Below, piece after piece: positions 26,571 to 63,998 of a stretch of 64,000 nt of DNA (the stretch's first letter is position 1; every line of letters begins with the position of its first letter). The stretch lies in the NCBI RefSeq assembly GCF_022539665.2, contig NC_081335.1:5704001-5768000 (forward strand), in the 5' to 3' direction. The notes below the pieces were generated by a model. The model searched no databases, had not been told where the DNA came from, and was given only the letters and a program-made list of their open reading frames with translations. A program made the position numbers and the translations under genes. The DNA comes from Daphnia carinata. Its lineage: Eukaryota; Arthropoda; Branchiopoda; Diplostraca; Daphniidae.

Positions 26571-26982
26571 TAGTTGACTGGCGTCGGCAAAGATGTGTTT
26601 GATGTGTTTGTTGACTTGTTGAATTTTCTTCGTTTACTAGGCATCGGGGAACTGTAACACGTGCTAAGTTTGGCAAACTTCGACACCATTTTTGAAATCG
26701 ACATTTCAAGGGTTCGGGTAGCTCTTCGTCCTAGTCCACCTTGGCTCGCCATACTTCTTGTGGCAGCATCTTCATGGCGAACATCAGTGGAGCAACGAAC
26801 CCAAGCGGATCGTATACGGTGGCCACCACACTTACGAGGTTTCTTTTAGTAGTTGTGGCGTGTAACTGAACCTTTTCTCCCACCTTGAAAGTGAACGCGT
26901 CGATTTCACTGTCCCAAAGGATCGCTAGGGCGCGATTCATAGGCAATTTGTCTAAGTCTAAATCCAGTTTTGGATTGGGCAA
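26570..26982 (-). pseudogene. BEL-1 RT C-terminal connection region (frameshifted)
   Basis: Frames at 26731-26982 and 26570-26752 carry the region between RT and RNase H. One holds LAILWDSEIDAFTFKV and VATVYDPLGFVAPLMFAMK, the W-D-S and YDPLGF boxes found in every BEL/Pao pol. The next continues from the VWRAKVDWD part into a short decayed segment. They overlap in different phases, so at least two frame disruptions lie here. Confidence 0.82.
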
Positions 26983-27067
26983 GCCTAATGGTTTGAGCGC
27001 TGCTAGGACCTTTCTTGACGATGACGACCACTTGGTGAGATTAAAACCCCCAGCTGTAACAGTTCCT

Positions 27068-28462
27068 TTACTGGCGGGCCCGTTTGATTGCCTCTACTTC
27101 CAAACTGAACGAATCCAGATAGTTGTCGACGTAGAAACTTGTTCTCAATCTGGCTGCTGCGTCTGGAAATTTCGTTTTGTTGTCTTCGGCTGTTTTGTTT
27201 AAGGCAAACAAACAAGTTGACGGCAACGAGACGGCTCCGAAGACATGGACTGTCATTCTGTAGGTAGGCGGAGAAGACGTGCTGTTTGGCGACCGGTACA
27301 AAGATCGAAAGGCATCCTGATTCTCTTCCGGAACTAAAACTTGATGATACATCTCCTCGATGTCGCTACTAATGGGAATTTGGTGCTTGCGGAAGCGCAA
27401 GATTATTCCAAGTAGGCTTAGGAGGTAGTTCGGACCGCGAAGAAGATTTTTGTTCAAGGAAGTTCCTTCACACTTTGCTGAACAGTCGAAGACCACTCTT
27501 GTTTTTGTCGTCAAACTCGTCGAATTTTGAAAACCATGATGAGGCATGTAATTTGCCTTTGGTGTTCTCCGTTTAGCTTCTTCTGTTGATAAGAGACGAG
27601 CATGGCCGAGTCTTATGTATTCTTGAATGACGTCATCGTACCGTTTGGCGTAACTGGGGTCTCTCTTGAAACGCCGTTCGATTTGAAACAGGCGGCTTAG
27701 CGCCATACTGTGGTTGTCTGGTAATTCTGGATCGTCGACCTTCCACATCAGCCCAGCTTGATGATGATTCCCGATGTATCTGGTGGTTCTCTTCAGAATC
27801 TCCTCTCCCCGGCGATCGTCTGCTGACATGAGTGGAGGAGACTGTACAGCGTCCTTCGCCTCCAGCCTCCAAAAACGCTCGACAAGTTCGGAAAGGCTCC
27901 TTTCTTCTTCTCTCGATGTGATGTGGGCTACATAATGGCTTGTTTGCTCCTGTTCGCTTTGCGGGCCCACTTTGCCTCCCAGGCACCATCCAAACGGCGT
28001 GTTGAAAGCCACCGGTCCAGTGGACCCATCCATTGGTTTACGCGATTCGCTGTGGTCGTGAGCGTCTGCTACATCGAGGCCAATTAGAATCGTAACTTCG
28101 TCAGATTGGACTTCTGGGAGCTTCAAGCCTTGCAGATGAGGGAACGCCTTTGCTTGTAAGCCCGAAAAGGCTGGATTTTGAGCGACGTGTAGATTTTCTA
28201 CTGCATACGCTTTTCTTGCTTTAAACGAAGTCGACCCGTCTCGCGAACTGAGGACGAATTCCACTATGTGAGCACTGACTGGAGTAACTCCCCCGTCGTA
28301 GGAAGTCACGTTGATCTTTGTTGTCGGCCAGGATAAACCTAGTTGGGTCCTGGCCACATCGCTTCGTATTAAGGTGGAGTCGCTTCCGCTGTCTAAAAAT
28401 CCAAAGGTATCGAAGACCTTCTCTCCCTGTTGTAGACGAACAGGAAAAATTTTGAAAAGCAC
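27068..28462 (-). pseudogene. BEL-1 aspartic protease and reverse transcriptase
   Basis: A 464-codon frame. Residues about 1-150 form the DUF1758-type protease: VFDTFGFLDSGSDSTLIRSD, with DSG as the active-site triad, and VTILIGLDVADAH. Residues about 270-460 are RT, with KTRVVFDCSAKCEGTSLN, LLRGPNYLLSLLGIILRFR, SSDIEEMYHQVLV and FYVDNYLDSF. The catalytic YVDD is YVDN, through an AAC codon at 27122-27124, which would inactivate polymerisation. The frame ends before the thumb. A zinc-knuckle gag frame lies directly upstream. Confidence 0.92.
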
Positions 28463-28534
28463 TCGACGTGGTGTGTCTCGACCAGAGCGTGATGCTGCAC
28501 CAAGGAAGGCTTCATCGACTTTTGTTGTCGAAAG

Positions 28535-29424
28535 TTACTCGACGTGGTGGTTCGATTTTGGTGTGGTCTTGTAGTCACCGGAGGTGCTTGCATTGTTTTT
28601 TGTGGAAAACTCTGAACCATGAAGCAACGTCGAGTGCCCCGGATTCTTGCATCCTTCGACCGTACATCGAATCAATTTCAACCTGGAAAATCGACTGGTG
28701 TGTTTTTCTGTAAGGCATCGGTGACATCTGCCTGCCTTGAAAACTGTTTCCGCTCTTTGTGTTGGAGACATCTGTTTGAAAGTGTTGCACTCTTCGATTC
28801 TGTGAATTGGCTCTCCGCAAACAAAGCACGTTGGGCTGCCTCTTGTTTGGCTAAACGAAGTTGTATTGGGTGGGCTCACCCGCAGACCTCCCTTTTTTGT
28901 TTGTAGAAAGTTTGTTTCAGGCGTCGAGGTGGTATCGTGGTTGATGGTCGAGACATAGTGAGTTGGGTATCCCTTCCCATTTCTCTTGGGCGCGACTGGT
29001 GGAGTCGTTGGAAGTGTTGAAGGGCCAGCCATTAATTTTGCGAAATCTGAACCCTTCGATTGGAGGGTCAACCAGTCGTCCAGATCGACTATTGAAGGTA
29101 CAGCGGGATGCATCTTCATCACCTTTCCTCCCCATCTTTCCCTTTCGGCAGTTTGGTGACGACATGCATGAGGTTGCCCAGAGACTCTAATTCGCTTGCG
29201 AGTCCAGATGTTGACAGAGCGGAGACAGCCCCATGAAGCTTGTTGGAGAATGTCTTCAAACTGGTGCTGTCATTTGGCTGCACAGACGGACGTCGAAGGA
29301 GGTTGTTCAGATGTGTCTGAGCCATGATAGTGGTGTGGCCATATTCTTGGTCGAGTCGATGCCAGACCACTACGTATTTGCTCGGGTCATGCACACAATT
29401 AGCTACCGAGTTAAGAACACGCAT
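28535..29424 (-). pseudogene. BEL-1 gag, C-terminal half with zinc knuckle
   Basis: Frame 28535-29122 contains CFVCGEPIHRIEEC (CX2CX4HX4C) and then CHRCLTEKH with a CTVEGCKNPGHSTLLH cluster, the usual BEL gag/protease linker. The overlapping frame 29119-29424 (HRLDQEYGHTTIMAQTHLN...) is the end of the DUF1759-like gag domain. The two are in different phases and overlap by only a few bases, suggesting a single-base indel in homopolymeric sequence rather than design. Confidence 0.85.
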
Positions 29425-30704
29425 GGCAAGCAGCTCCTGCAGATGCTAGTCGAATTCCATTGTCGCTACACCGATTGTGATACAGCGTCATAAACTTCGA
29501 CTTAAACATTTGGTAATTCAACGGGTTCCCGTCGAATTTGGTGATGATGAGAGGTGGGAGTGCTGACATTTTCAAAGAGTTGACAAATTGGCAGATGAGA
29601 CTAGAATCAGATTTCGGATCGCCCTTAGACTGTTGCTGGCAGCTAAACGATGGATCGTTAGACATATCGATAGTTGCCCCTATGCTGTCTATTTGCTCGC
29701 CCGTTGTCCCAGCTCTTCTGCATTGTTCCAAAAGGTTGACTGCCTGTGGCGATGAGGATGGGGTAATGCCTTGCGGCCATTCTAAAGCTTCGCGACGCTG
29801 AGACAACATGCCTTGTATCGACGTGTCGAGCCGACCTTGGGAAGATACGTTTTCGCTCTCGGGGCACTGTCTAGACATTTTTGTACACGTCTGCTGTACA
29901 AGCTATTTTAGCCTCTCAAGTTCTTTGGACTGCGATTCGCTATTTTTCTGAATAGCTTCTTGTTTCTCTTCAACTTTCTTTGAATTTGACTCGTTCTCTT
30001 ACACGATTTGGCCCGTCGCAGACTTAAGTCGAATGTCTATCTTCTTTTCGAAGGTTGCTAAGGATTTTTCATTAACCTCCTGGATCGATTGTAGAATTTG
30101 CTCGATCGCGTGTAACGATTCACTTTGTTGTTTGGCTTGCACAGATGACTTCTTAATGTCTTTGACAATATTTGACAAAAGCTCTCCATGTCGGGTTAAG
30201 ACGTCTTGCGTGTGGTGTGCTTGGGTTCCGAGCTGTTGAATCTTTGTGGATACAGTCGATTTTTCTATTACGCTTGCTTTTGTCACTGTTGAGTTGATAG
30301 TGACTGACAGTTGATGCAAGTGATGATACAGTCGACCGCGATGCTAGATGTTGGTCGATTTCTGACAGCACACTCTGGTGGTCTGTCGTGAACTGTACTC
30401 CCCAGCGTTCACACTCGGCTCGGCGTTTACCAGGTAGATTAGTGACTGTCTCCACATATTTTTCGTGAAGTTCCATGGTATTATCAAACAGGCGTACAAG
30501 TTCGGTGCGCCAGATGCTCAATTGGCCCTTGCTGAGGCGAATGCCTTGACGATGTTGACGGATACAATCGTGGATCCTGGTCGACAGCGTGGTATGCTCT
30601 CTCTTCCGTAGACCTCCTGATTGAGTAAGACTGGGAATTGCTGAATCGTGACTCATGTTTCCACCATGGTGATCAGGCTCCGACTCTGCGATTTTTAAGG
30701 CCAT
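29411..30704 (-). pseudogene. BEL-1 gag, N-terminal half
   Basis: Three minus-strand frames. 30153-30704 (183 codons) begins gag with a charged helical region. It shifts near 30310-30325 into 29999-30319, a coiled-coil-like stretch (QSESLHAIEQILQSIQEV). Frame 29411-29878 carries PPLIITKFDGNPLNYQMFKS, the opening of the DUF1759-like capsid domain. Similarity of the region to BEL gag is by pattern and position. A stop and shifts between the pieces make it non-functional. Confidence 0.75.
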
Positions 30705-31021
30705 TTCAGATTCTTCCTTGGTGGGTTTTGAGATGACTCCTGGACTTCCTCCATGGTGAACCGGCCCGACACAGCGATTTTTAAGGCTACTGTGGATTCT
30801 TCCTTGGTAGGATCTGTGATAATTCCTTGGATCTCACTCATCTTGCAATTGAAGTAGGGTAACACAAATGCTCAACAGACACAGGATGTAGACGATATCA
30901 ACAGATACAGTTCGAACGGTTGGTCGACCAGCGTGGACACGGAACGTGAACAACACGAGGTCGCTACAGTACAAAAGTTGGACAGCTGGAAATGGAGGCT
31001 TACACTATTCGATTTCCAGAG

Positions 31022-31039
31022 TCCCGGGTTTCGGCACCA
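31022..31039 (-). promoter_or_regulatory. BEL-1 primer-binding site, tRNA-Phe
   Basis: The plus strand reads TCCCGGGTTTCGGCACCA, identical over 18 nt to the conserved 3' end of eukaryotic tRNA-Phe including CCA. On the minus (sense) strand it is TGGTGCCGAAACCCGGGA, two bases inside the 5' LTR, the expected minus-strand primer site. Confidence 0.92.
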
Positions 31040-31041
31040 TT

Positions 31042-31380
31042 TGTTGCGCATCTCTAAGAGAATAGCAATAGCTTTAAAGACTGGCAACCTTAAAGCCCCT
31101 GATTCCCTGGCTTGCCAAAAAGAAAACTGACGAAATTTAAGATACTGTATTAACAGAAAACAAGAGACACTTCGTTGGACAAGAGGGGGGTTCGACAGCT
31201 CTGTGTCGACCACAAAGGGACTAAAAGAAGCCTCAAAGAACACAAAAACAGACAAAAAAAGACTGACGAGATCGAACTCCGTGTGCCTCCCAAGAAGACA
31301 AGAAGGAAAAAACAAAAGAGAATCGAACCTGTAAGGGAGCCCTCTAGAGGGTTTTGCCTCTACCGATCAAATCGGTGACA
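31042..31380 (-). repeat. BEL-1 5' LTR
   Basis: 339 bp, TGTTGCGCATCTC...CGGTGACA on the plus strand; the partner is 23587-23909. Contains an extra block of about 17 bp near 31186 absent from the other LTR, so the copies have diverged by at least one indel. Confidence 0.95.
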
Positions 31381-34450: not shown

Positions 34451-35191
34451 TGTAACGAAGCCGTGGAGAATACAATTTTGAATTTTAGTGTTGTTTATTG
34501 TCGTTCTTATTAATATAACTATATGTTACGATCGTTGCCCTTCTTTGAATAACTACGCCTTATGAATATCATACTTCGAGTGTTGATGCCCTTTCTTCGA
34601 AATCTATTTTTATATTATATTTGACATCCTGTTCATTGCTGATTGGATGACTCTAGATGCGTAGGACATCGCGCCATGCATTTCCATGAATATGAAATGT
34701 GTGTGCGACATTCTGCATCCGGAGTCATCTGTCGGAAATGTTATGTTTCCCTCAATCTTATAGAAATATAAAAGGATGCCCTTTTTGTCCCCAAAAGTCA
34801 GTCCTCTTCGGTTCTTCAGTTGTTTTCGGTTCACCTCAGTGTTGTGCTGTTCAGTGCTACCAAGCTGTGAGTTTAATCAGTTTTTATCTAACAATTACTT
34901 GAAGTGCGTCTCATCGCTTCTTCGGCGACCGACAAGTTTACTTCTTGTTCTTTCTCTTACAACGTATATATATTGCGCCGCCGCTTTGACGGTAAGACAG
35001 AACTCGCATAACTCCATTCTTATATTTCCGTTTCTCACTTAAGACTATAACTGTGTATTTCTTATTATCTTTTGGCCTATTAGAACGGAATACATACGGC
35101 ATTGTGGTAACGCCTACCGAGTTCATTTTTTGCACAATTTGTCTTAAATAACGTAAAGACATTCTTCCAACCACTGAAAGAATGCTTTACA
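34451..35191 (+). repeat. Gypsy 5' LTR
   Basis: 741 bp, starts TGTAACGAAGCCGTGG and ends GAATGCTTTACA. Matches 45695-46435 with about seven substitutions and no indel that I see. Confidence 0.97.
34767..34803 (+). promoter_or_regulatory. LTR core promoter: TATA box and initiator
   Basis: TATAAAAG at 34767-34774 and an arthropod-type initiator TCAGTC at 34798-34803, with the A 33 bp from the TATA start, the normal spacing. Transcription from here would define the U3/R border of the LTR. The 3' LTR repeats it at about 46011-46047. Confidence 0.75.
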
Positions 35192-35194
35192 TAA

Positions 35195-35205
35195 TGGTGG
35201 CAGCG
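35195..35205 (+). promoter_or_regulatory. Gypsy primer-binding site, probably tRNA-Leu
   Basis: TGGTGGCAGCG lies three bases after the 5' LTR. It is complementary to the 3' end of eukaryotic tRNA-Leu (CGCTGCCACCA) over 11 nt; the match then fails. Several insect gypsy-type elements prime with tRNA-Leu. Confidence 0.7.
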
Positions 35206-35225
35206 ATCTATCGAACTCACCCACA

Positions 35226-37889
35226 ATGACGGATGATATTTTTGCTAGTAGGCCTAAACTTTTTCGTACTCCTGTATCCGCTACTAGGAATCCTGTTGAG
35301 CCAGCTATACAAATTGATGAACCTTTAGCCCAATCCTTTAATTTTGATAAGCCTTCGGCTTCAAATCTTGCTGAGCCCGATACGTTTACGGGTTGTAAGA
35401 CGTCTGACAGGGCAACGGAAGCTGTTAGGAAATCTGCCTCCCCTGTTTTAAAACCCAGATCAGTTTCTGATAACTCTCAGTTACGTAAGTTAAGATCGAA
35501 CTCTGCGTACGAATTAGTAAAGGGAGTAGACCTTTCTCACGTCCGTAAACCTCGTACCAAAAAAGACGCTAGCACCTCGACTGCGCGAAATTCTGCTTCC
35601 CTATTTACCAAATTGGTTACCCGTCTTTCACCCAAGCAAACCGTTTCCGCGACCCCTTCTCCATCGTACGGTCTCTTGAATACCGTTGCGGGTGTTTTTA
35701 AGAAACAGACGACACCTAATGGAAGACCAGCTCAACGTCAGTCTCCAGCATCTATATCAGGAAATCAAGAGGCGGGAGGACAGCATCTTCCGGCTACCGA
35801 GCAGCCAACTGCCGTTCCTGCTACTAGCCATCAGGAGCCTCAAGGAGAGGATAAAAGACTTCCAGTCGAGCGACCCGAAAATTTGGGATCATCTTGTCCT
35901 GTTAATGCACGACCTTCAGCGGAACTTCCCAGTCGAGCCAGCAACACAGACAGATTGGAAACAACCAAAGACCCTCCTGAAATACCTGATATCAGTTCTG
36001 GAAGTGACAGCCAGGGGGACGACGAAGAGGGAGACGAGGAAACGGACAGAGGAACTCGTGACGGAACTCGCGGGAATTTTCACGAAACACGCGAGACAGG
36101 TACTGACTTGCCTACAGGGACATATCTACAGCATTATCGACCTGCAGAAGATCACGCCAACGAAGAGACGGGAACTGTTCGGTTTCATCCCGAGACGGGA
36201 CATCACCGACTACGACGAGGACGGGAGATACGTGGAGATAATCACGGTGGTGAGCGACACATCAGTTCACCTGGAATTGATACTGCTAGAGTCACAAAGA
36301 ACGTTTCTGAAGGAAGTGGCCGATCTAGCCTCTTACCTAAAGAAACTCCAGTTGCTCACAAATTTGGAGGCGTTACTACCGGAAATTATATTCCTGGTGG
36401 ACAAGCTGAGCAATTTTCCGGAAGCCTACGACCCCCTCTTTGCACAACAGGCGAAGGACATCAAGCCACTAATCACACACACGGAAATCAAATTGAAACA
36501 ATTGTTGACGTCCATAAAAACGGGACCAACACAGCAGAGGGACGTGCTAATCCAACAACCATCGCCGCTGTCGGAAAGCCTACCGAAGAAGAAACGGACA
36601 CGCAGAAGAGGCAACCGCTCCAGTCGGTCACACGTTCGACGCTGCCCTCGTGCCCATCCACCCAGCCCGTCGGAGGAAACGATAGAGAATTTAAGACACT
36701 TACGAGCGACATTTCAGAACAATCTCAGAATCCACAGAGACGAACTGTAATTTTCCCTATATTTAACTCGAAGATGGCGGAATCTTGCTCTCCATCCAGA
36801 GCGGCTACGCTCAACGATTTGAATGATTTTCAAAATAATCAGCATACCTTTTCTCGATTGCAATTTCTTCCCTCTTTTTCTGGAAATCCTCTTGTACGCT
36901 TTGACTCCTGGCTAGAATCTTTTGAAAGTATTGTGGACGGCTCAGGTTGGTCAGAAGAGAAAATTATCCAGATGTTAAGGGCCAAACTAGTAGATAAAGC
37001 TTTCTCGGTCGTTCAGACAATTTTAAAAGCTCATCCGCATGATTATGCTTTAATTAAGGAAGCTTTAATTGATCATTTCCATGGTGATGAAAATGTGGAT
37101 TTCTATCAAAAGAAATTTAATAAAGCTAAGCGTAAGCCAGGGGAAAAGATCATAGAGTATGCGCATCGTTTGCAGGAAATTTTTAAACGCGCATATCCGA
37201 CAGGTCATTTGGAAGCATCTTTTGGTATAATTCTTATGCAAAAATTTATAGAGGGGTTGGAGTCCAAATTGCAATCTAAAGTTAAATATAAAGAATTCAG
37301 GAATTTTAATGATCTTGTTGCTGCGACACGTGTATATGCACTGCGACTAGAGGCCATGGAAACAGATAGGGAGAAACAGGATTTTATTCGAGCAGTGACC
37401 GAACCGCCTGACACCAAAGACGCAGAATTAAAAGAGCTGAAGAAAATGATATTGGATCAAAGGGAAACCGTTAAGAATGCCGTAGCAAATATTAGGCAAG
37501 GGGGTAAGCAGGTCGAAGACCCTAACACTGAGAAGGATGAAATTAAGAGTGCTCTCCTGGAACTAACGCTAGCCGTAAAGCAATTACGAAGCGATAAAAA
37601 AGATAATGTGGCTGACACGTCGAGTGCACCTTATAAGAAGCAGGTTTCATTCCAAGGGGGTAACAGTGGTCAGGATAGAAATTGGAGGCCTCCTCAGCAG
37701 GTTAATAATTACAATGGTACACAATCATTCGCTAAATTCGCGAATAGGCCTACAACTTTTGGACCTGTTTTTCCGAATTCAGCTAGTGATCGTAACTCAA
37801 GGCCTACACCGCCACCGCTGACTTGCAATTTTGTGGATATCGTGGTCATATTCAGGCCGATTGTCACAAATATCAACGGCAAAGCTTAG
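35226..37889 (+). CDS. gag: Gypsy gag polyprotein (frameshifted near its end)
   Basis: 887 codons from an ATG with A at -3. Residues 1 to about 160 are polar. Residues about 165-508 are low-complexity and disordered (many P, G, T, E), where a second ORF overlaps in the +1 frame. Residues about 530-720 are the capsid-like Retrotrans_gag domain (LPSFSGNPLVRFDSWLESFE, KPGEKIIEYAHRLQEIF). The C-terminus should hold a zinc knuckle, but a T appears to be missing in the run at 37829-37832, so this frame ends after LTCNFVDIV and a further dozen residues. The correct frame continues at 37823-38017. Gag packages the element's RNA. Confidence 0.93.
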   Translation: MTDDIFASRPKLFRTPVSATRNPVEPAIQIDEPLAQSFNFDKPSASNLAEPDTFTGCKTSDRATEAVRKSASPVLKPRSVSDNSQLRKLRSNSAYELVKGVDLSHVRKPRTKKDASTSTARNSASLFTKLVTRLSPKQTVSATPSPSYGLLNTVAGVFKKQTTPNGRPAQRQSPASISGNQEAGGQHLPATEQPTAVPATSHQEPQGEDKRLPVERPENLGSSCPVNARPSAELPSRASNTDRLETTKDPPEIPDISSGSDSQGDDEEGDEETDRGTRDGTRGNFHETRETGTDLPTGTYLQHYRPAEDHANEETGTVRFHPETGHHRLRRGREIRGDNHGGERHISSPGIDTARVTKNVSEGSGRSSLLPKETPVAHKFGGVTTGNYIPGGQAEQFSGSLRPPLCTTGEGHQATNHTHGNQIETIVDVHKNGTNTAEGRANPTTIAAVGKPTEEETDTQKRQPLQSVTRSTLPSCPSTQPVGGNDREFKTLTSDISEQSQNPQRRTVIFPIFNSKMAESCSPSRAATLNDLNDFQNNQHTFSRLQFLPSFSGNPLVRFDSWLESFESIVDGSGWSEEKIIQMLRAKLVDKAFSVVQTILKAHPHDYALIKEALIDHFHGDENVDFYQKKFNKAKRKPGEKIIEYAHRLQEIFKRAYPTGHLEASFGIILMQKFIEGLESKLQSKVKYKEFRNFNDLVAATRVYALRLEAMETDREKQDFIRAVTEPPDTKDAELKELKKMILDQRETVKNAVANIRQGGKQVEDPNTEKDEIKSALLELTLAVKQLRSDKKDNVADTSSAPYKKQVSFQGGNSGQDRNWRPPQQVNNYNGTQSFAKFANRPTTFGPVFPNSASDRNSRPTPPPLTCNFVDIVVIFRPIVTNINGKA
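35719..36750 (+). CDS. Overlapping +1-frame ORF inside gag (343 codons), novel
   Basis: Lies wholly within gag, one frame forward. The first ATG is at 35719; the frame is open from 35686. It encodes a helix-rich, hydrophobically patterned protein (e.g. LPFLLLAIRSLKERIKDF, YIYSI-like SIIDLQKITPTKRRELFGF, FLVDKLSNFPEAYDPLF) with a basic tail KKKRTRRRGNRSSR that could bind nucleic acid or direct nuclear import. I know no family match. A diverged relative at 62.6-64 kb keeps the pattern LF-FIPR-I-D-D-DG-Y and other blocks. That argues for real coding, while the gag frame here looks disordered. It could be made by leaky scanning, a spliced mRNA or +1 frameshifting; nothing decides between them. 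Confidence 0.8.
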   Translation: MEDQLNVSLQHLYQEIKRREDSIFRLPSSQLPFLLLAIRSLKERIKDFQSSDPKIWDHLVLLMHDLQRNFPVEPATQTDWKQPKTLLKYLISVLEVTARGTTKRETRKRTEELVTELAGIFTKHARQVLTCLQGHIYSIIDLQKITPTKRRELFGFIPRRDITDYDEDGRYVEIITVVSDTSVHLELILLESQRTFLKEVADLASYLKKLQLLTNLEALLPEIIFLVDKLSNFPEAYDPLFAQQAKDIKPLITHTEIKLKQLLTSIKTGPTQQRDVLIQQPSPLSESLPKKKRTRRRGNRSSRSHVRRCPRAHPPSPSEETIENLRHLRATFQNNLRIHRDEL

Positions 37890-38017
37890 AACAGGCTCGG
37901 CCACCAATATGCTATTCTTGTAGGGAAATTGGGCATAAGTCAAATAATTGTCCGAAGGAAAAAACCTCGAATAGGCCTAATATTCCGGGTCCTCCTCCGC
38001 GTCAGGGAAACCAATAG
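37823..38017 (+). CDS. gag: Gypsy gag C-terminus with two zinc knuckles (continuation frame)
   Basis: Continues gag after the lost base. It carries the end of a first knuckle (YRGHIQADC) and a complete second one, CYSCREIGHKSNNC (CX2CX4HX4C), then a proline-rich tail ending PPPRQGNQ and TAG at 38015-38017. The first knuckle's opening CX2C is split by the shift. Zinc knuckles bind the genomic RNA. The slippery heptamer GGGAAAC falls on the last codons. Confidence 0.88.
   Translation: MQFCGYRGHIQADCHKYQRQSLEQARPPICYSCREIGHKSNNCPKEKTSNRPNIPGPPPRQGNQ
38005..38011 (+). promoter_or_regulatory. Programmed -1 ribosomal frameshift site GGGAAAC (gag to pol)
   Basis: In the gag zinc-knuckle frame the codons read CAG GGA AAC CAA TAG, so G GGA AAC is an in-phase X XXY YYZ heptamer just before the stop. 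Slipping -1 enters GGG AAA CCA ATA, a frame that stays open into the protease (DTGA) frame. This is the expected way for a gypsy element to make Gag-Pol. No pseudoknot was modelled. Confidence 0.85.
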
Positions 38018-39831
38018 GTATCAACTGTAACTTCGGGTCAGTTGATAGGGAGCCTCAGTTTAAATCCCGACAAGTCGCGAAATTAACAACTATTACGAAT
38101 GAATTAACACCTAGAATTCCTTTGAAAATTTTTCAGATTCCGTTTCAAGCTTTATTCGATACAGGCGCGTCTAAGAGTATTATTCATGAGAGATTATTTA
38201 AGAAGTTACCCCAGAGAGGTCAAGTGATCTGCAGTCAGCTTGATTTCGACTTATATGATGTAGGGGAAAAGAAGTTGCATACGCTGGGAAGAGTTACCTT
38301 GCCCATAAGGTACGGAGAATCAATTTTGAGACAGGAATTTATTGTTACAGACGGTGTTTCTGAAGATTGTATCCTTGGATGGGATGCAATCCAGAAACAC
38401 GGATTTCGGCTCGATGGAGAAGCCAAAAGCATTTATTTAGCAAGGGATAAGCAGAGATGAGCTATCTCTAGTATTCCGGACATGGCAGTTACGACGGTCA
38501 AAAAGACGACGTTACCTCGTCAGACGTCGCTAGTAATTGCAGCGCAAATGAAAGGGTCATTTCCGTTTGTTCCGCCTAATACAGCTTTTATATTTATTCC
38601 AGCGGAGGATTTGCCGGCCGGTGTTTTTTTTGAGGAGTTTGTAGGGACGGTATCGGGGGATGGAACATATAATATTCTGGTTGAAAATCATTCGTTAAAC
38701 CAAGTCAAAATTCCTAGGGGTGCTAAGTTAGGTGGCATCGAAATTACTACTCGAGTGATTGGGAAAATCGCTCTAAGTAAAGTTGAAGATAGGCCTAATG
38801 TGGCGAAAGAGCTTATTGCAATTCCGGAAGTCGACCCTGAATTTCAAGTACCGCTCGCTAAATTATTAAATGACTTTCACGACTTGTTCGCTTCAAAAGA
38901 TTCAGAATTAGGTAACACTGACCTTATTAAACATACAATTGATACGCAGGGACGGGGCCCTATCCGACAACGCCCATATAGAGTTACAAATAATCAGAAA
39001 AAATTATTGGAGGATAAGGTACAAGAAATGCTTGATGCAGGTGTGATTCGGTATTCACATTCGCCATGGGCTTCACCTGTGGTTTTGGTTGAAAAGAAAA
39101 GTGGTGAAGTCAGATTTTGCGTAGATTATCGGAAGCTGAATAATATCACGAAATAAGATTCGTTTCCTATGCCAAGGATAGATGAAACATTGGATAAGCT
39201 GTATGGAAAGAAATTTTTCACTACTCTCGATTTAGCTTCCGGCTATTGGCAAATCCAGGTAGATGAGCCAGCTATCGAAAAGACTGCATTCGTGGTAGAG
39301 AATAATCTTTACGAATTTAAGCGTATGGCATTTGGCTTGTGCAATGCACCTGCCACCTTTCAACGACTGATGAATTATGTACTGAAAGACGTTTTGGGAA
39401 GTAAGGCATTAGTTTATTTGGATGATGTGATTATCTTTTCAGATAATTTTGAGGATCATTTGAGGGATATTCGCGAAATTTTTCAATTATTAAAAGAAGC
39501 TAATTTAAAATTAAAACTTAAAAAATGCCAGTTTATTAAGCAATCAGTAAATTATTTAGGCCATTTTATTTCGACTGAAGGGATTAAGCCAGATCCTGGG
39601 AAGATCGATAAAATAGTGAATTATAAGACACCTTCCTCCGTAGATGAAGTGAGATCGTTTTTGGGATTAGCCGGATATTATAGGAGATTTATCCAAAATT
39701 TTGGATCAATAGCTAAGCCGTTGACCAGATTAACTCATAAAGACCTTAGTCGGAAGCCTTTTGTTTGGGGTACTGAGGAGCAAGCTGCCTTCGAAAAGTT
39801 GCGAACTTCTCTGGTTACCCCCCTGTGTTAG
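38008..39831 (+). pseudogene. pol: Gypsy pol part 1: protease and reverse transcriptase (two in-frame stops)
   Basis: Starting from the -1 frame at the heptamer, pol has the aspartic protease FQALFDTGASKSIIHERL (active-site DTG) and CILGWDAIQKHGF. A linker follows, then RT: SPWASPVVLVEKKSGEVRFC and VDYRKLN, FTTLDLASGYWQI, and LVYLDDVIIFS with an intact YLDD. A TGA at 38458-38460 separates protease from RT, and a TAA at 39154-39156 interrupts RT. Both leave the frame unchanged. The frame is lost near 39810-39830, where the sequence after TPL shifts into the next ORF. All catalytic motifs survive, so decay is recent. Confidence 0.94.
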
Positions 39832-41999
39832 CCTACCCTAATTTCAATGAGAAATTTTTACTTTTCACAGACGCTTGCGAGTATGGAATTGGAGCAGTGC
39901 TTTCGCAGATACAAAATGGTCATGAACATCCAATAGCTTATTCTAGTAGACAGTTAACAAAAGCGGAGATGAAATACGCTACTACGGAAAAGGAAGCTTT
40001 AGCCGTGGTTGATGCGATTAAACATTTCAGGCATTATCTTTTGGATAAGCCTTTTGAAATTATTAGTGATCATCGTCCATTGCAGTGGCTTAAGGAAAAA
40101 AAAGATAATAACAGTAGATTAGGCCGCTGGGCTATACTTCTAGCTGCGACGAATTATGAATTAAAATATAGGCCTGGCCGGATTCACCAAAACGCTGACT
40201 GCTTGTCACGTTTAAAGGTGGCTAGTATTCAAACTGGACAAAATATTAAGTTTATTTGTGAAAAGCAGCTGGAAGATGAACTTTGTATAGCTATTAGAAA
40301 CTATTTAGAGAGCGGAGAGCTGGAAGGGATTTTTAAACAATCTAAGCCTGATTGGGTAAAGGAAATTGAATATTTTGAGATCATCGAAGGTATTCTTTAT
40401 CGACATGAGTTGCCTTCTTTAAATAGTAGGCGTAATGAAATAAATTATCAGTTAGTGTTGCCTGCATCGATCCGCCATCTAGTGCTTAAAGAATTACATG
40501 ATGCGCCGATGGGAGGTCATTTAGCTTTTTATAAAACTTATTTAAAAGTTTAAAGTCATTATTATTGGCCTAATATGAGGGGCGATATTAAAGAATATTG
40601 TCAAGCTTGTGAAGTGTGTATCGCTAACACTTCATCCACTTATAGAGCACTTTTACACCCTCACGAAGTGGCCAAAGCACCCTTTCAAGTAATTGGAATG
40701 GATTTTCTGGGGCCTATTACACCTGTTTCTCCTAACGGAAATAGTTACATTTTAGTTATTACCGATTATTTTAGTAGATGGGTAGAAGCTGTTGCTCTAA
40801 AGGATCAAACCGCGTTAACGACAGCCCAGTGTGTATATAAAACTATTATTGTGCGTCATGGAATGCCAAAAGCCATTCTATCTGATCGTGGAACGAATTT
40901 CACGTCAAAATTATTTCGATATTTTTGTAAGAAATTAAGGATTGATCAGCGGTTAACGACCACGTATAACCCAGCTAGTAATGGGGAAACCGAGAGATTT
41001 AATAGGACATTAACGACAATGTTGAGGAAAGAATTAAAGGATGGTGCGCATTCCAATTGGGAGGATATGTTAGACGACGTATTATTTGCCTATCGTAGCT
41101 CAGTGCACGCTTCAACACTTGACACCCCTTATTATTTGCTCCATGGTAGAGATCCAAATATTCCGATTAATGAATTTCTCGATGCGTCTCCAAAAACGTT
41201 TAAATCTTCTTCTGATTATGTGGGCAATTTAGCGGAACGCTTACGTTATAGTTTCCAAAGAGTTAGGGAAGACAGCGAAAAAGCCAGGGAGCGTCAGAGG
41301 GAACAATATAACAAGCGTGCTAAAGAAAACCGATACGTGGTAGGCGATAGAGTGTTATTGGATATTCGTGTTGTTAAAGATGGGGATAGTAGGACATTCA
41401 CTTCTAAATATAAAGGGCCATATAGGATAGTTAAGGTATATTCTAATAATACAGTAGACATAGCAGATAACTCCTATATCTGTCAACGTACTCACGTTAA
41501 CAGATTGAAACCTTTATATGAAACAATGCTTTGGAAGACAGAGCATTGTTCCCCATTTGAGTCGTCTTCTGAATTTGAAAGTCGATTTCGTAAAACTATT
41601 TCGACTCAAACAATTGATGTATCAGAAAATGTAGATAGGCCTATGGATGAAGTTGATGATATGTATGTTGTCCAAGAAATTGTAAAACCCTCCTCTGATG
41701 TAAACACTACACCCCTTCACGACGGCTTGACAGTATACACCGGAAAAGAAGTTGGAACCTTAGCAATGGATAATGCTGAAAATTCTATAGAAAAATCGAT
41801 GGAAATGGATTTTATTCCTCTGGATTCACCAGATTCCGAAAATTGCACAAAAGATACGCCGGAAAAGTGTCCTTCCATAGAAATACAGCCTGTAACTTTT
41901 CATGAAAATTTGGAAATTGATACACCACAACCGGTCGTGGACACCGGACGACCAAAAAGAAATCGCAGGAAGCCTATCCGATACACTGCTGGATTTTAA
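39825..41999 (+). pseudogene. pol: Gypsy pol part 2: RNase H and integrase (one in-frame stop)
   Basis: The frame after the shift gives RNase H (FLLFTDACEYGIGAVLSQ, then IISDHRPLQWL). A TAA at 40551-40553 splits the integrase zinc domain: HDAPMGGH before it, CQACEVC after it. The integrase core has FQVIGMDFLGPI (first D), ILSDRGTNFTSKLF (second D), and NPASNGETERFNRTL (catalytic E). A chromodomain is absent; the GPY/F module (KYKGPYRIVKVYSNNTVDI) is present. A 150-residue acidic tail ends at 41999 with a basic cluster. Confidence 0.94.
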
Positions 42000-42042: not shown

Positions 42043-42083
42043 TATATAAGCTCGTGACACATAGTGGCAGATATTCATCAGTT
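42043..42083 (+). promoter_or_regulatory. Candidate internal promoter before the first accessory ORF
   Basis: TATATAAG at 42043-42050 is followed by ATTCATCAGTTTG, with initiator-like TCATC and TCAGTT (A at 42077 or 42080) 34-37 bp downstream. An ATG follows at 42109. A TATA-Inr pair between pol and an accessory ORF would allow LTR-independent transcription. Motif evidence only. Confidence 0.45.
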
Positions 42084-42108
42084 TGTGACTAGTGGTCCCG
42101 ATTCCGTC

Positions 42109-42651
42109 ATGGATTCCGACAGCACCGTTGAGTTGAACACCTGGGACGTCACGAAAAATATTGAAGTGGCGACGACGTCGCAAGTGATCGAGGAAGATGA
42201 AGAACCGGCGAGCAAGCGATTGAAGCTGAAAGAGGAAGGTGAAGTAAGCACCGACGAGGAAGCAGAAAAAAAAACGGAAAAAGATCTCGACGAGTGGTTG
42301 CACCAACCAAGTTTGTCAAAGGACGAGAGGAAGAAGCAAGATGCTGATCACGAAGCATACGATCAGATGTGGGATAACTACAGGAGCCCAGGCTCCCATT
42401 CGGAGGATTCCGATCGGGAACACGCCTGGCGTAAGGAAAGGAGGCGATTCAACAGGGAAATGAGAAGGAGGACAAGGGATATGGCCGAAGAGCTCCAGGT
42501 ACATATTCGGCAAGAGGACTGGAGAAAAGCAGTGGTGAAATTGAAGAGAATTTTGGATCTGGATCCGGAAAACAGAAGCCCACCCCTTTACGGATGGTTT
42601 CCGGAAGATTGGAACCCCGACTACCGTTGCAGATTCTGCAGAAAGAACTAG
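42109..42651 (+). CDS. Accessory ORF 1, acidic/helical protein ending in CxxC (novel)
   Basis: 180 codons from ATG 42109; the frame is open from 42064 with GTG. Composition is strongly charged: an acidic N-half (EEDEEPASKRLKLKEEGE) and a basic middle (WRKERRRFNREMRRRT). A C-terminal domain then contains EDWRKAVVKLKRILDLDPEN, resembling one helix pair of a TPR-type repeat, and finishes with YRCRFCRKN, a single CxxC. The second accessory ORF ends the same way. I know no family for it. It may be a regulator or RNA/DNA-binding factor, with KRLKLK a possible nuclear signal. No breaks are seen. Confidence 0.7.
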   Translation: MDSDSTVELNTWDVTKNIEVATTSQVIEEDEEPASKRLKLKEEGEVSTDEEAEKKTEKDLDEWLHQPSLSKDERKKQDADHEAYDQMWDNYRSPGSHSEDSDREHAWRKERRRFNREMRRRTRDMAEELQVHIRQEDWRKAVVKLKRILDLDPENRSPPLYGWFPEDWNPDYRCRFCRKN

Positions 42652-43416: not shown

Positions 43417-44034
43417 CTGACAACATTATTTTATTACAAATTCGGTGCTTGTGGGTGGACCAGAATCAATCCTTTCTCGCCCTTTGTGACCTCGCTACCG
43501 GCCGAAACAAGAGTTTTCTCTTCCTCTGCTTTTCGTTCCTTCGTGTCGTTCCTGTTTCGGCATACTTCCGACAGCTCCTGGCGGCTAATACCAGTCGATG
43601 TGGGCGAGCCGGAACCTGGACCATATAGCCGTATTACCCCTCCACCTATTCCTCCAACTACCGAGTCTCCAACCGCTACACCCCGGGTGCGGTCTACCCC
43701 GCCCACGGCGCGACCCAAGCCGCTCCGGCTGAGGCCGATCGCTGATCTCCTCGCCGTACCACCTACCTGGCCAACTCGACGCGACGTCGACATACGCGAT
43801 TTGAATCTCCGGACCGGAATTCTGAAATTTGAGCTACACAAAGCTCTCGATGAAGAAAACTGGCAACTGTCGGTGGAAAAATTACAAAAGATCTTGGAAC
43901 TCGATCCGCAGCACCGTATGCCTCCACCACCAAATTGGGCATTATCCCAATGGTGGGTACAGGACGTTTGCCCTACCTGCAAACGACCAGGAAGGCGCCC
44001 CAATGGGCCGGTGATTATCACCATCGACGATTGA
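43417..44034 (+). CDS. Accessory ORF 2, paralogue of ORF 1, ATG-less (spliced exon?)
   Basis: The frame is open from 43417 to the TGA before 44035 but has no ATG until MPPPPNW near its end, so it is probably reached by splicing from an upstream exon. The N-half is Pro/Thr-rich with a RPTPPTARPKPLRLRP-like segment. The C-terminal domain (HKALDEENWQLSVEKLQKIL, ELDPQHR) aligns with ORF 1 (EDWRKAVVKLKRILDLDPEN), and both close with CxxC (here DVCPTCKRPGRR). Shared order of helix pair, LDP motif and CxxC indicates duplication within the element. Function unknown. Confidence 0.65.
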   Translation: MTTLFYYKFGACGWTRINPFSPFVTSLPAETRVFSSSAFRSFVSFLFRHTSDSSWRLIPVDVGEPEPGPYSRITPPPIPPTTESPTATPRVRSTPPTARPKPLRLRPIADLLAVPPTWPTRRDVDIRDLNLRTGILKFELHKALDEENWQLSVEKLQKILELDPQHRMPPPPNWALSQWWVQDVCPTCKRPGRRPNGPVIITIDD

Positions 44035-44938: not shown

Positions 44939-45003
44939 TTAGAGATTTATCAACTCGTTGGTTAGCCGTCGAGATTTATCACTAACGTTGGTTAGCCGCT
45001 TCG
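44939..45003 (+). repeat. Tandem direct repeat of about 29 bp
   Basis: GAGATTTATCAACTCGTTGG and then GAGATTTATCACTAACGTTG, each followed by TTAGCCG, form two units directly before the env-like frame, ending near a CATCTAG splice-acceptor-like site. Confidence 0.65.
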
Positions 45004-45603
45004 CATCTAGATCTACCTAAGTGCACAAAGTTGCAAGCCTTTGGAAAAACAGCCATGGTCATCTCTTGCAAGCCCTTAAATGTGACCTTCGAAACTGTTA
45101 TAACATCTTGCGGACCGCAACCAAAATTCAAAAATTATACAATTAACCTGGACGGTTGGGAACTCGTCAAATATTCGCCGTGTTATTGGACAAATGGCTT
45201 TGTGAACTTTAATGACATTCCTTATACGTTTCGCAATAACACTTGGAAGCCCGTAAATGCAAGTATCGTATTACCGGTACAAACTCTTGCGCATTCATTC
45301 CGGTACGACGATGTAAAGTTTTTCGACTACGAACATAAAAGTAACCCTGCGTACAGTGAAACTATTATGGATCACATGAGCATCATGGCTGATATTGCGG
45401 CAGCTATGAATGAACATTCGCCGAGTGAGTTTTCAACCAATAATCGTCCAAGTGTTACCAACGTTTTATTATCCGCATCCGGATTGACCGCTTATACCAG
45501 CTGGTGGGAAACCATCAAGAATTATTTCTTCATCGGCGTACTCTGCCTCCTGGGTCTTCTTTTTACGCATTTGCTATGGCTGTGGATTTTTCAGGCTCAT
45601 TAG
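44986..45603 (+). CDS. Short env-like, membrane-anchored ORF of the gypsy element
   Basis: The frame is open from 44986; the first ATG is near 45053. About 185-205 residues, with several N-glycosylation sequons (NVT, NYT, NNT, NAS), a few cysteines, and near the C-terminus a hydrophobic segment of about 20 residues (YFFIGVLCLLGLLFTHLLWL). That fits the membrane-proximal part of an errantivirus-type glycoprotein, which would sit in membranes. It is much shorter than the 400-550 residues usual for such env, and no signal peptide or fusion domain is seen. An adjacent frame is open for about 20 more codons after the stop. Probably a remnant or a reduced accessory glycoprotein. Confidence 0.6.
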   Translation, partial: RWLAASHLDLPKCTKLQAFGKTAMVISCKPLNVTFETVITSCGPQPKFKNYTINLDGWELVKYSPCYWTNGFVNFNDIPYTFRNNTWKPVNASIVLPVQTLAHSFRYDDVKFFDYEHKSNPAYSETIMDHMSIMADIAAAMNEHSPSEFSTNNRPSVTNVLLSASGLTAYTSWWETIKNYFFIGVLCLLGLLFTHLLWLWIFQAH

Positions 45604-45694: not shown

Positions 45695-46435
45695 TGTAAC
45701 GAAGCCGTGGAGAATACAATTTTGAATTTTAGTGTTGTTTATTGTTGTTCTTATTAATATAACTATATGTTACGATCGTTGCCCTTCTTTGAATAACTAC
45801 GCCTTATGAATATCATACTTCGAGTGTTGATGCCCTTTCGTCGAAATCTATTTTTATATTATATTTGACATCCTGTTCATTGCTGATTGGATGACTCTAG
45901 ATGCGTAGGACATCGCGCCATGCATTTCCATGAATATGAAATGTGTGTGCGACATTCTGCATCCGGAGTCATCTGTCGGAAATGTTATGTTTCCCTCAAT
46001 CTTATAGAAGTATAAAAGGATGCCCTTTTTGTCCCCAAAAGTCAGTCCTCTTCGGTTCTTCAGTTGTTTTCGGTTCACCTCAGTGTTGTGCTGTTCAGTG
46101 CTACCAAGCTGTGAGTTTAATCAGTTTTTATCTAACAATTACTTGAAGTGCGTCTCATCGCTTCTTCGGCGACCGACAAGTTTACTTCTTGTTCTTTCTC
46201 TTACAACGTATATATATTGCGCCGCCGCTTTGACGGTAAGACAGAACTCGCATAACTCCATTCTTATATTTCCGTTTCTCATTTAAGACTATAACTGTGT
46301 ATTCCTTATTATCTTTTGGCCTATTAGAACGGAATACATACGGCATTGTGCTAACGCCTACCGAGTTCATTTTTTGTACAATTTGTCTTAAATAACGTAA
46401 AGACATTCTTCCAACCACTGAAAGAATGCTTTACA
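45695..46435 (+). repeat. Gypsy 3' LTR
   Basis: 741 bp matching the 5' LTR with about seven substitutions. The preceding GCCGGGAGTGA is a short purine-rich stretch that may serve as polypurine tract. Confidence 0.97.
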
Positions 46436-47919
46436 TAAGCAGAGTTAGAAGTAGCTCACTGAAATAGGAGCGCGCTCTGAGCTTTCCGCGCAGTGCTTCA
46501 AAGCATGCGGAAAATCGCTCTCGGTCGCAAAAAAAAAGAGCACGCTCTCGCTCATTTTTCGCTCGCACTGGAACACGTCCCAATGATATAGCTTCTTCGT
46601 TTTGGAACACGCCCAAGGCTTGAGAGATTGGCTTCATAACTTTAATGAACTCTTTAAGAAATTCTTGTTCAGCGGCTGACAGTTTTTTAAGTTTGAAATG
46701 TTCGAAAATAGTTTTGAAGTCCTTCATTGTATTTCGATGCGAAATAATGCATTTTGCACATCACGTTGTAGTACCTGTTCCACCGTGTTATGTTATGGAT
46801 AACGAATAACTCACCTTTTGTCTTTCTTATGAAGTCAGAACCTAGGGAACTCCGACTTTGTTTGTTCCAAACGGCAGACAGTTTTAAATCCAACTTTATT
46901 TAAATTTTGAGAATTGGCGATTCGTGATGTTTTTGACATCTGTAGTGACAATCAGATTTAAGGAATGATAAGTTCATCGGAAATGACGAGGAAAAACAAT
47001 TCTATTATCAACGTCGCAAATGTCACTGCCACTGTCAAACTCCATCTCATCTTGTGTTGCCTTTAGCTCACTTTGTTGCATCGGCATCGCAAGGCCACAT
47101 GACTTGACGCTTCCTACGTCTACTTTAATTTTGTTGCGATGATCCAAAATCAATCCAACGTCAACGTAAAAGACGTCTTCACTGTCATATTCATCGTCAA
47201 TTAAGTCATCTTCGTCACAGGAAGCTCCAGGTAAATCTTCTTTTTCCTTAGATGGAAACATCTTGAAGGCTTTTAAAAAGTTAGATCCGTTGTCTGTAAT
47301 TGTGCAGTGGACTTTAGCGGTAGTCCGGAATTCCGCATGGAGATCTGCCATTACCTTGGTAAGCACATCGTAAGTGTGCGCTCCATAAAGTCGCCGAACA
47401 ACAAGACAAGCACTTCGCCGGATAATGTCTTTTGCATCCTTTCCTTCCCCTAGCCAATGAGCCGTCATACCCAAAAAGCTCTTGCGATGAGCTGTCCAGC
47501 AGTCAGCTGTGGTGGAAACATAATCCACTTTTCAGGTTCTGAAACAAAGGTTTGATTTAGTTCTTGCATATTTTTGGGTTAAAATCTCCACCATCGACCG
47601 CCGACTTTTTATGACAAGTGGACCAATCAATCCTCCAATAAGCTTCTGGAATCCGTTTTTTTTTTCCCATTAATTTTAATGGCAAAAGATCTGCAATGAC
47701 GTGATTCTTTATAAAACATAAAAGAAAAATATATTGTCCTGTTTCGAATATATAATAAAATGTTTGTACAGTCACCAAGATCGCCTCGCCAATTTCTTCT
47801 TGGACTCTTATTTGTTTAAATTTCGAGAAACTCGAATGCAAGTGATCTTTAAGTTTGGCTTGTGTGAAGCTGGATTGTGAGTGCTTCACTGTGATGTCGG
47901 TAGCAAGTAGCGTTATCAC
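46431..47919 (-). pseudogene. hAT transposase (hAT-1), 5' and 3' truncated
   Basis: Minus-strand frames give STTADCWTAHRKSFLGMTAH and CTITDNGSNFLKAF, signature hAT blocks. They also give NKQSRSSLGSDFIRK and a C-terminal DFKTIFEHFKLKKLSAAEQE segment near 46.6 kb. An intron (47707-47775; GTGACT...AAAG) lies between EAIL and NHVIADLL, at the same place as in hAT-2. Stops and phase changes at 46.9 and 47.53 kb break the frame. Confidence 0.85.
46436..46439. repeat. Gypsy target-site duplication, right copy
   Basis: TAAG directly after the 3' LTR and directly before the left terminal inverted repeat (CAGAGTTAGAAG) of the hAT element. Confidence 0.9.
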
Positions 47920-62609: not shown

Positions 62610-63998
62610 ATCAACTATGCCACGAACTCAAAAGCAACCAGGCCGGATATTCCAAACCCAGGAGTGCCAGTGACCGTTCTTGACACTGGCAATCAAAAGC
62701 CTCAAGGTCAGTGAGATAGATTTATAGTTGAACGGTCCGAAAACCTGGGATCAACTCTTCTGGTTGCCGCAAGATATCATATTGAAGCATATTTATCAAG
62801 ACAGACAGCGGGTGCCAGTAGATTTGAAAAAAAAAACGACGATGTTTCTGAAATACTTGACAGCAATTCTGGAAACGAAAGCCAGTCGGCGGATCAAGAA
62901 GACCACGAAGAAAACGGAGAAACAGATGACAGTGCTAGCGTCAATTTTCACGACGTATGAGAGGCAGTTTAGGTCTTTTCTGCTGGGATTGACTTACAGC
63001 ATCGCCAAATTGCAGAAACTCACGACACCAAAGAACAAGGAACTCTTCAATTTTATTCCCAGGCAGAACATCATCGACAGAGACGTGGACGGAAAATATT
63101 ATCGTCTCATTTTCGAGGTATCAGAGCTATCATCCCACCTGCAGGACATTTTACTGGGATAACAGCAAACATTTCTTATGGACACCTTTAGCCTTGCTAA
63201 TTTTCCACACAACGTTTTGGTTCAACAACATGAGACATCTGCATTTTATGCAGGAAAATGTGTTCCAACGTATATGCTACACAGACACAGATTTGATTCG
63301 ATAAGAATGATTACAAGAATTGATGAAATGTGAAAAGGAGCCCTCACGAATAGTTACCACCATGATGTCGAGGAAAAGAGAAAAGAGAAAAATGAAGCAG
63401 TCAATTAAGAGACTGTGGAGTATGTGATGTGTAACTACTAAACAACAACCATAAGAGAATAACCGAACAAAGTACAAAGAGGGAGGATCTCTGCAACTGT
63501 TCCATATCGATCATTCCTTTACGACTAACTGACGAATCAAGGAATGTCTTCTAACAGCGTGTGTTTGTGTGAAAATTTGACAATCCCGTTGCCGTACCTT
63601 CGGAAACCGACGACGATAACCGATTTAGATCACTGGCCGTCTTAAAAATTATCGCATTGGACCAAATGGAACAATTTCCGGGATGTGGAAAACTCGTGTC
63701 ATGTAGCTAGAGAAGAAAATCAAGCAAACCGTCATCCAAACCGTTAGAAAACTGAACCAGTTGCTAGCGTTCATTCAAACGAGCCAAACAAAACAGCTAA
63801 CCACCTCATTGCAATTAGTATCGCCGCTATAAAAAAACAGGTGACTCCAGAGACGAACGAGGTTCAGAAACCGTCAACCCAATCAATCAATTGAAACCTT
63901 GGATAATTTCGAACAATTCAGAGTCGCATTTCAGAACTTACTCAGAATCAAGACAAAGGAGCCCAAAAATCTCCCTTGTTTATCGAACCAGAAACATA
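62610..63998 (+). pseudogene. Diverged copy of the gypsy gag region and its overlapping ORF
   Basis: A 144-codon frame (62728-63162) aligns with the middle of the overlapping gag ORF: PKTWDQL against PKIWDHL, LKYLTAILE against LKYLISVLE, and LFNFIPRQNIIDRDVDG against LFGFIPRRDITDYDEDG. Farther right, 63.7 and 63.9 kb align with its later parts (ETLDNFEQFRVAFQNLLRI against ETIENLRHLRATFQNNLRI). The gag-phase frame aligns as well (VERSENLG against VERPENLG; EILDSNSG against EIPDISSG) but meets a TGA at 62958-62960. A block at 63.2-63.7 kb does not align. The copy runs off the window. Confidence 0.85.

Follow-up and report, generated by a model that had tools for sequence, protein, structure and literature searches.

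A probable accessory gene nested within gag of a Ty3/gypsy element in Daphnia carinata

Overprinted genes are well known in viruses, and the question raised by the locus described here is whether an LTR (long terminal repeat) retrotransposon carries such a gene within its gag. In a stretch of 64,000 nucleotides (nt) of the Daphnia carinata genome (NCBI RefSeq assembly GCF_022539665.2, contig NC_081335.1, positions 5,704,001 to 5,768,000 of the forward strand; hereafter the window, with positions numbered from its first letter), an LTR element of about 12 kb lies on the + strand (Table 1). The +1 frame of its gag, to which a preliminary description of the window drew attention and which we denote ov, is open for 356 codons (35680-36750) and, from the ATG at 35719, encodes a protein of 343 amino acids (aa); ov lies entirely within gag, such that the first codon position of gag is the third position of ov. 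Judging by the sequence comparisons below, ov is very likely a real gene for a hitherto undescribed accessory protein, and we consider it probable, with good confidence, that it is a protein-coding gene nested in the gag of an apparently env-bearing Ty3/gypsy element; its translation would start at its own AUG.

When the genome (108 Mb in 106 contigs, of which C1-C10 measure 7.9-14.4 Mb) was searched with ov, matches were found in 119 places, at 36-100% identity. Eighty of the 118 places other than the window copy were fetched, giving 81 loci in total, and stop codons were counted in 79 cut-outs (78 of the fetched loci plus the window copy; 25,632 codons; loci L083 and L088, which were out of register, were omitted). 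Across the matched stretch, ov contained 44 stops and gag 37, compared to 1,755 in the third forward frame and 1,357, 674 and 1,136 in the three reverse frames, so that stops are not scattered equally among the frames; the value of 44 is an overcount because the natural ov stop of short-tailed subclades can lie inside the matched stretch. Over this stretch, both frames were free of stops in 30 copies, ov alone in 15, gag alone in 21 and neither frame in 13; a search by ov favors an open ov frame but does not favor an open gag frame. Given the gag protein, shuffling of synonymous codons produced a mean of 3.0-6.3 stops in ov, and none was observed in nine of nine sequences (P of zero ≤ 0.0138; for the window copy, mean 3.0 and P = 0.0114). 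Conversely, given the ov protein, shuffling produced a mean of 5.0-9.6 stops in gag, and again none was observed in nine of nine sequences (P ≤ 0.0024). Thus, each frame avoids stops more than the protein of the other frame accounts for and, given that this holds in both directions, both frames are held open. The preliminary description also pointed to a diverged relative at 62.6-64 kb of the same window with similarity in the ov frame, and tblastn recovered it in two pieces (41% over 62629-63204, E = 5 × 10−30, and 35% over 63713-63961, E = 3 × 10−6); this copy has decayed, being interrupted and carrying stops.

Selection was analyzed in 13 representatives drawn from the 38 of the 81 loci in which both frames passed the openness rule; omega is the ratio of uncorrected proportions with kappa (the transition/transversion ratio) fixed at 2, changes were sorted by their effect in both frames, and the separateness of pairs was judged on pairwise distances rather than on a tree of all 13. 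In four separate pairs, omega for ov was 0.35, 0.49, 0.45 and 1.00 (Fisher p = 2.3 × 10−14, 5 × 10−7, 3.8 × 10−4 and 1, respectively; pooled omega 0.52), whereas the values for gag in the overlap were 0.68, 0.86, 1.54 and 1.34 (pooled 0.97). Purifying selection specific to the ov frame is therefore apparent in three of the four separate lineage pairs. Three further pairs gave omega values of 0.47, 0.54 and 0.72 for ov in the overlap; the phantom +1 frame of flanking gag gave 1.09, 0.67 and 0.72 in the N-terminal part and 1.08, 0.87 and 0.99 after the overlap. Within the overlap, the highest difference rate was at the third position of ov, i.e. the first position of gag, in 75 of the 78 pairs of representatives (the exceptions being L011-L019, a tie, L037-L075 and L038-L075). 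Between the window copy and L011, for example, the rates at the three ov positions were 0.143, 0.192 and 0.318; in the flanks of the overlap, the third gag position was the fastest in this pair (capsid sequence: 0.15, 0.11 and 0.35 at gag positions 1, 2 and 3).

The ratio of nonsynonymous to synonymous proportions (pN/pS) of gag, assessed in 12 pairs, was 0.32-0.68 before the overlap in 11 of them (undefined in the twelfth) and 0.24-0.76 after it, and rose to 1.00-2.55 inside the overlap, except for 0.00 in the near-identical pair L037-L041; the pS of gag fell from 0.37-0.69 in the flanks to 0.20-0.24 in the overlap (three pairs among the window copy, L011 and L029). In each of the 78 pairs, amino acid identity in ov exceeded that in the third frame (0.33-0.96 vs. 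0.21-0.94), under an ov-based alignment that favors ov. Neither of the outcomes that the preliminary description named as counting against ov, an even spread of stops or no more constraint in ov than in the third frame, was thus observed. In the overlap, ov is the better constrained frame, whereas gag is nearly free at the amino acid level yet stop-free. The omega values and the position rates thus indicate that ov is a protein under selection in most lineages tested and that gag in this region is a stop-free linker.

These results bear on two alternative explanations. Under the first, ov alone is translated here and Gag proper begins at a downstream ATG near 36774, the open gag frame being a by-product; an ATG is indeed present at 36774 and gag omega in the overlap is about 1, but the gag stops expected given ov are missing from all nine sequences, and the N-terminal, gag-only part is constrained in the 11 pairs where pN/pS is defined, so that we regard this scenario as very unlikely. 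The second is that an RNA or DNA constraint (a packaging signal or secondary structure), or composition, mimics a coding frame. Packaging signals usually reside near the 5' end, and so does the overlap; however, the rates vary with a periodicity of three bases dictated by the ov frame, and stops abound in the third frame and in all three reverse frames, which renders this explanation hardly credible.

A search with the capsid detected a sister clade of elements whose capsids are 38-39% identical to the query; in some of them the gag frame comprises 1,064-1,066 codons, and gag of this clade also matches Retrotrans_gag above the cut-off and Ty3_capsid below it. One of these elements, L089, has a +1 open reading frame (ORF) in the same place and phase as ov, with 252 codons from its ATG at 1292; the genome contains 46 matches to it, 13 being full-length without a stop. 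Five sister-clade sequences were read, and L089, L090 and L091 are open in both frames (L090 and L091 are 97% alike). Between L089 and L090 (75% identity in ov), the change rate was 0.134 for changes altering both proteins, 0.216 for those silent in ov only and 0.153 for those silent in gag only. Alignment of the ov profiles of the two clades with hhalign was collinear, with a probability of 2-6%, E = 0.007-0.019 and a score reached by none of 200 column shuffles; the two ov proteins are probably homologous.

Beyond this genome, the ov protein of the window copy, used as a single sequence, scored no relative in a set of 5.8 billion proteins. A 15-row ov profile retrieved one Daphnia magna protein (among the best 8,000 candidates scored), and a second profile retrieved the same protein and five more from D. 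magna, the last at E = 0.049. Among the matches listed, no stretch of the D. carinata genome is more than 55% identical to the full-length D. magna relative, P0003. The predicted D. magna proteins P0004, P0005, P0007 and P0008 seem, by eye, to be annotation chimeras that fuse pieces of the gag and ov frames; P0005 and P0007 join both stretches of such elements, and both frames would therefore exist in D. magna as well. A sequence search of the PDB with ov yielded nothing credible, Pfam gave only scattered weak matches to 15 ov members (best E = 0.003, in one member), and viral contigs contained no relatives of ov of either clade, in a set that may omit records close to this genome. In these searches, relatives of ov were thus detected solely within Daphnia.

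How might ov be expressed? The preliminary description placed initiation near 35719: the ATG is retained at the aligned ov start in 70 of the 81 loci, but its context is not strong (of the 70, 69 have G at +4 and 69 have C or T at −3). For the gag ATG, both −3 and +4 are A (7 loci). In 15 sequences, the upstream ATGs outside the gag frame open mostly short frames, all of which end ahead of ov, and in L089 a run of 957 nt lacks any out-of-frame ATG. Ahead of the ov ATG, eight loci (L001-L008) show, by eye, a T-rich tract with an AG after it. Leaky scanning, reinitiation and splicing all stay candidate routes because the depletion of upstream ATGs is patchy and both a donor-like motif in the leader and the T-rich/AG tract are present. 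Strict leaky scanning as a general rule was dropped, given that 9 of 12 sequences have no significant upstream ATG depletion. A short ORF (35182-35229) is located at the LTR end/primer site, with a stop that overlaps the gag ATG (ATGA), and ATG pairs occur at similar places in the 13 representatives.

A further possibility is that ov is produced as a Gag-ov fusion through +1 ribosomal frameshifting, its own AUG being unused. The 13 open ov-frame codons ahead of the ATG in the window copy would allow for this, but several subclades carry an ov-frame stop immediately ahead of the ATG, which makes a fusion less likely; moreover, the protein alignment begins at methionine in 13 of 15 rows, and the ATG is kept in the great majority of the loci. 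Frameshifting accordingly appears quite improbable.

As for the protein itself, the proposed division of labor, with a helix-patterned ov with a basic tail set against a low-complexity gag, held up in seven sequences: the helical hydrophobic moment (z) was 2.9 to 4.4 in ov, compared to −0.3 to 1.7 in gag and −0.5 to 2.1 in the third frame, and proline plus glycine made up 7-8% of ov vs. 14-21% of gag. The basic tail, with 7-11 lysines or arginines in 20 residues, is present in the 13 clade-1 representatives. The first residues are MED in the window copy and ME or MD in those aligned rows that retain a start. Identity of the window copy to the far subclades is 38-40% in ov, compared to 74-77% in the capsid. 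Structure prediction was among the checks that the preliminary description had called for: AlphaFold2 run from two sequences modeled ov as nearly all helix, but at a mean pLDDT (predicted local distance difference test) of 49.1 the model is unreliable.

We propose that translation of ov would start at its own AUG on the element mRNA, with the gag AUG either scanned past or taken out by splicing, and that the product would be a helical protein, bearing a basic tail in the main clade, with an accessory function exerted in trans instead of a role within Gag; Gag itself would form a flexible linker over the shared bases, with a sequence largely dictated by ov. The role of such a factor is conjectural. 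One guess is that ov is an antagonist of, or an adaptor to, host factors, most likely those of small-RNA silencing or another intrinsic defence, which would fit because ov evolves fast and has no relatives outside Daphnia. The full version of this scenario, in which an old, fast-evolving, gag-nested ov disarms host silencing or another intrinsic defence and Gag ceded constraint over about 340 codons, seems doubtful to us. Alternatively, ov might serve in structure or RNA handling, as a matrix-like protein or as a Rev/Rex-like exporter that relies on the basic tail, rather than as a defence antagonist. The tail itself, the apparently env-bearing layout with extra ORFs and the splice-donor-like motif in seven of eight leaders are in line with such a function, whereas the lack of the tail in the sister clade and the evolution of ov, far faster than that of the capsid and unlike that of a structural part, are not; we view this as a realistic possibility, although short of probable.

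Several observations weigh against ov being an own-AUG accessory gene conserved across these elements. One of the four separate pairs, L037-L075, shows no constraint on ov (omega 1.00) and looks neutral, ov being cut at 309 codons in L075. The phantom-frame omega of 0.67-1.09 touches the range for ov of 0.47-0.72, although it is near 1 overall and the contact is in the short N-terminal part. The sister clade lacks the basic tail, two of its copies (L092 and L093) show decay of both ov and gag, and the hhalign probability of the two clades' ov is so low that their homology is at best probable. The structure model is poor. With C or T at −3 of ov and A at −3 of gag, plain leaky scanning would not be obviously efficient, and depletion of out-of-frame upstream ATGs exceeds that in synonymous shuffles in 3 of 12 sequences only (shuffle fractions 0.0005 for L089, 0.03 for L029 and 0.037 for L080, the last being near-identical to L029).

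The term overprinted, used in the preliminary description, implies that ov arose over an older gag. Nesting, conservation and selection of ov are all borne out, whereas its being the younger frame is weakly supported by codon usage (six copies pooled): ov correlates negatively with the capsid (r = −0.55) and pol (−0.41), compared to 0.31 and 0.27 for gag in the overlap, a comparison confounded by frame geometry and stop avoidance. Trees of ov and capsid for 11 copies conflict, with strong support in each, on the position of L027, which has a long branch in the ov tree; its ov groups with the window copy and its capsid with another subclade, possibly through recombination between ov and the capsid. 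This conflict suggests that the 5' module was exchanged between lineages.

Among known systems, ov, known here from sequence comparison, resembles the paramyxovirus C protein in layout. Pfam includes a C-protein model, and this family is not among the 25 Pfam families listed for the 15 ov members, the best match (E = 0.003) being to another family; no direct comparison was made. Like ov, C is encoded in a second frame where the main protein has a disordered N-terminal region, and its product is helical; leaky scanning is among its expression routes, and a new fold was predicted by the authors. Unlike ov, it belongs to negative-strand RNA viruses, and several C proteins act on interferon (PMC3934983). 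Hepatitis B virus is, like the window element, reverse-transcribing, and its polymerase has a long overlap that includes a disordered spacer and has the same phase as ov and gag (position 1 of a codon in the long frame coincides with position 3 in the other), but its overlap partner is the surface (envelope) protein, whereas ov is nested in gag (PMC9093120). In the Drosophila MDG1 group, Ty3/gypsy elements carry the extra 5' genes sORF1 and sORF2, for which there is evidence of function, but these lie upstream of gag and are not nested; sORF2-like proteins have 63-107 aa, a membrane domain and an N-myristoylation motif, compared to 343 aa and an MED start for ov (PMC11952523). An assignment of ov to MDG1 sORF2/FAST-like proteins, which are short and start with MGxxxS/T, is at odds with the length of ov and its ME/MD start.

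The pX region of deltaretroviruses, a "gene nursery", resembles ov in that accessory genes were overprinted in a retrovirus, but it is located at the 3' genome end and not in gag, and is expressed by alternative splicing and leaky scanning (PMC3744397). Conserved additional ORFs are also known from plant LTR retrotransposons; these are more often between pol and the 3' LTR, and the word overlap is absent from the main text of that article (PMC7264820). The passages covered of a survey of Daphnia pulex LTR elements contain no gag-nested gene of this kind (PMC2996953), and a word search of a review of viral overlapping genes found no mention of retrotransposons or LTRs (PMC8227390). In the literature searched (titles and the beginnings of abstracts, with few subscription papers), no kilobase-sized gene nested in the gag of an LTR element was found.

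The window element combines two LTRs bounding the unit, a gag capsid and integrase domains. The open gag frame extends over 903 codons (35178-37889) and matches PF14893, a PNMA-type capsid family, at residues 557-664 (E = 2.1 × 10−6); the integrase was identified by matches to rve and a zinc-binding domain. Pol of the window copy is interrupted by stops at 38458, 39154 and 40551 despite LTRs that are 99% identical. Two additional ORFs, X1 and X2, between pol and env, have a C-terminal stretch in common by eye and are possible extra accessory genes; in a number of copies, a second, weaker match to X1 lies 1.4-1.6 kb from the first, among the matches listed. The env-like ORF has open frames of up to 642 codons elsewhere in the genome (among at least 150 matches) and, by eye, a hydrophobic segment close to its end. 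Because of this ORF and the two additional ones, the element appears to be an env-bearing, errantivirus-like Ty3/gypsy element and to resemble an endogenous retrovirus more than a plain retrotransposon. Elsewhere in the window, the − strand at 24940-31366 contains long stop-separated frames of up to 488 codons, probably another element.

Table 1 Features of the ov-bearing element and its relative in the window
Feature	Position	Strand	Remarks
5' LTR	34451..35194	+	99.06% identity to 3' LTR across 744 nt; edges exact to a few bases
TATA-like box TATAAAA in LTR	34767..34773	+	952 nt upstream of the ov ATG; consensus match only
Splice-donor-like GACGGTAAGA in leader	34988..34997	+	motif in 7 of 8 loci L001-L008; putative, motif only
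gag frame	35226..37889	+	887 codons in window copy; PNMA-type capsid match; proline/glycine-rich linker in overlap
ov gene (probable)	35719..36750	+	343 codons and stop; +1 to gag; helical pattern; basic tail at residues 289-308
gag capsid region	36774..37442	+	used as search query and as part of the frame-constraint control
pol	37981..41999	+	stop-separated pieces, broken in window copy; integrase core in last piece
Additional ORF X1	42058..42651	+	at least 150 genome matches
Additional ORF X2	43417..44034	+	like C-terminal part of X1, by eye
env-like membrane protein, C-terminal piece	44986..45603	+	at least 150 genome matches; no Pfam match
3' LTR	45695..46438	+	99.06% identity to 5' LTR across 744 nt
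Decayed ov relative, two pieces	62629..63961	+	tblastn

The nesting of ov in gag would account for the chimeric protein models of D. magna, and other regions of "disordered gag" would be worth rescanning for nested genes. Should the conjectured silencing role prove true, ov would be the first nested silencing antagonist of an LTR element. If ov is indeed the gene that we take it to be, the Metaviridae would gain an accessory gene, and its more than 100 matches in one genome would constitute a natural experiment on evolution in two frames.
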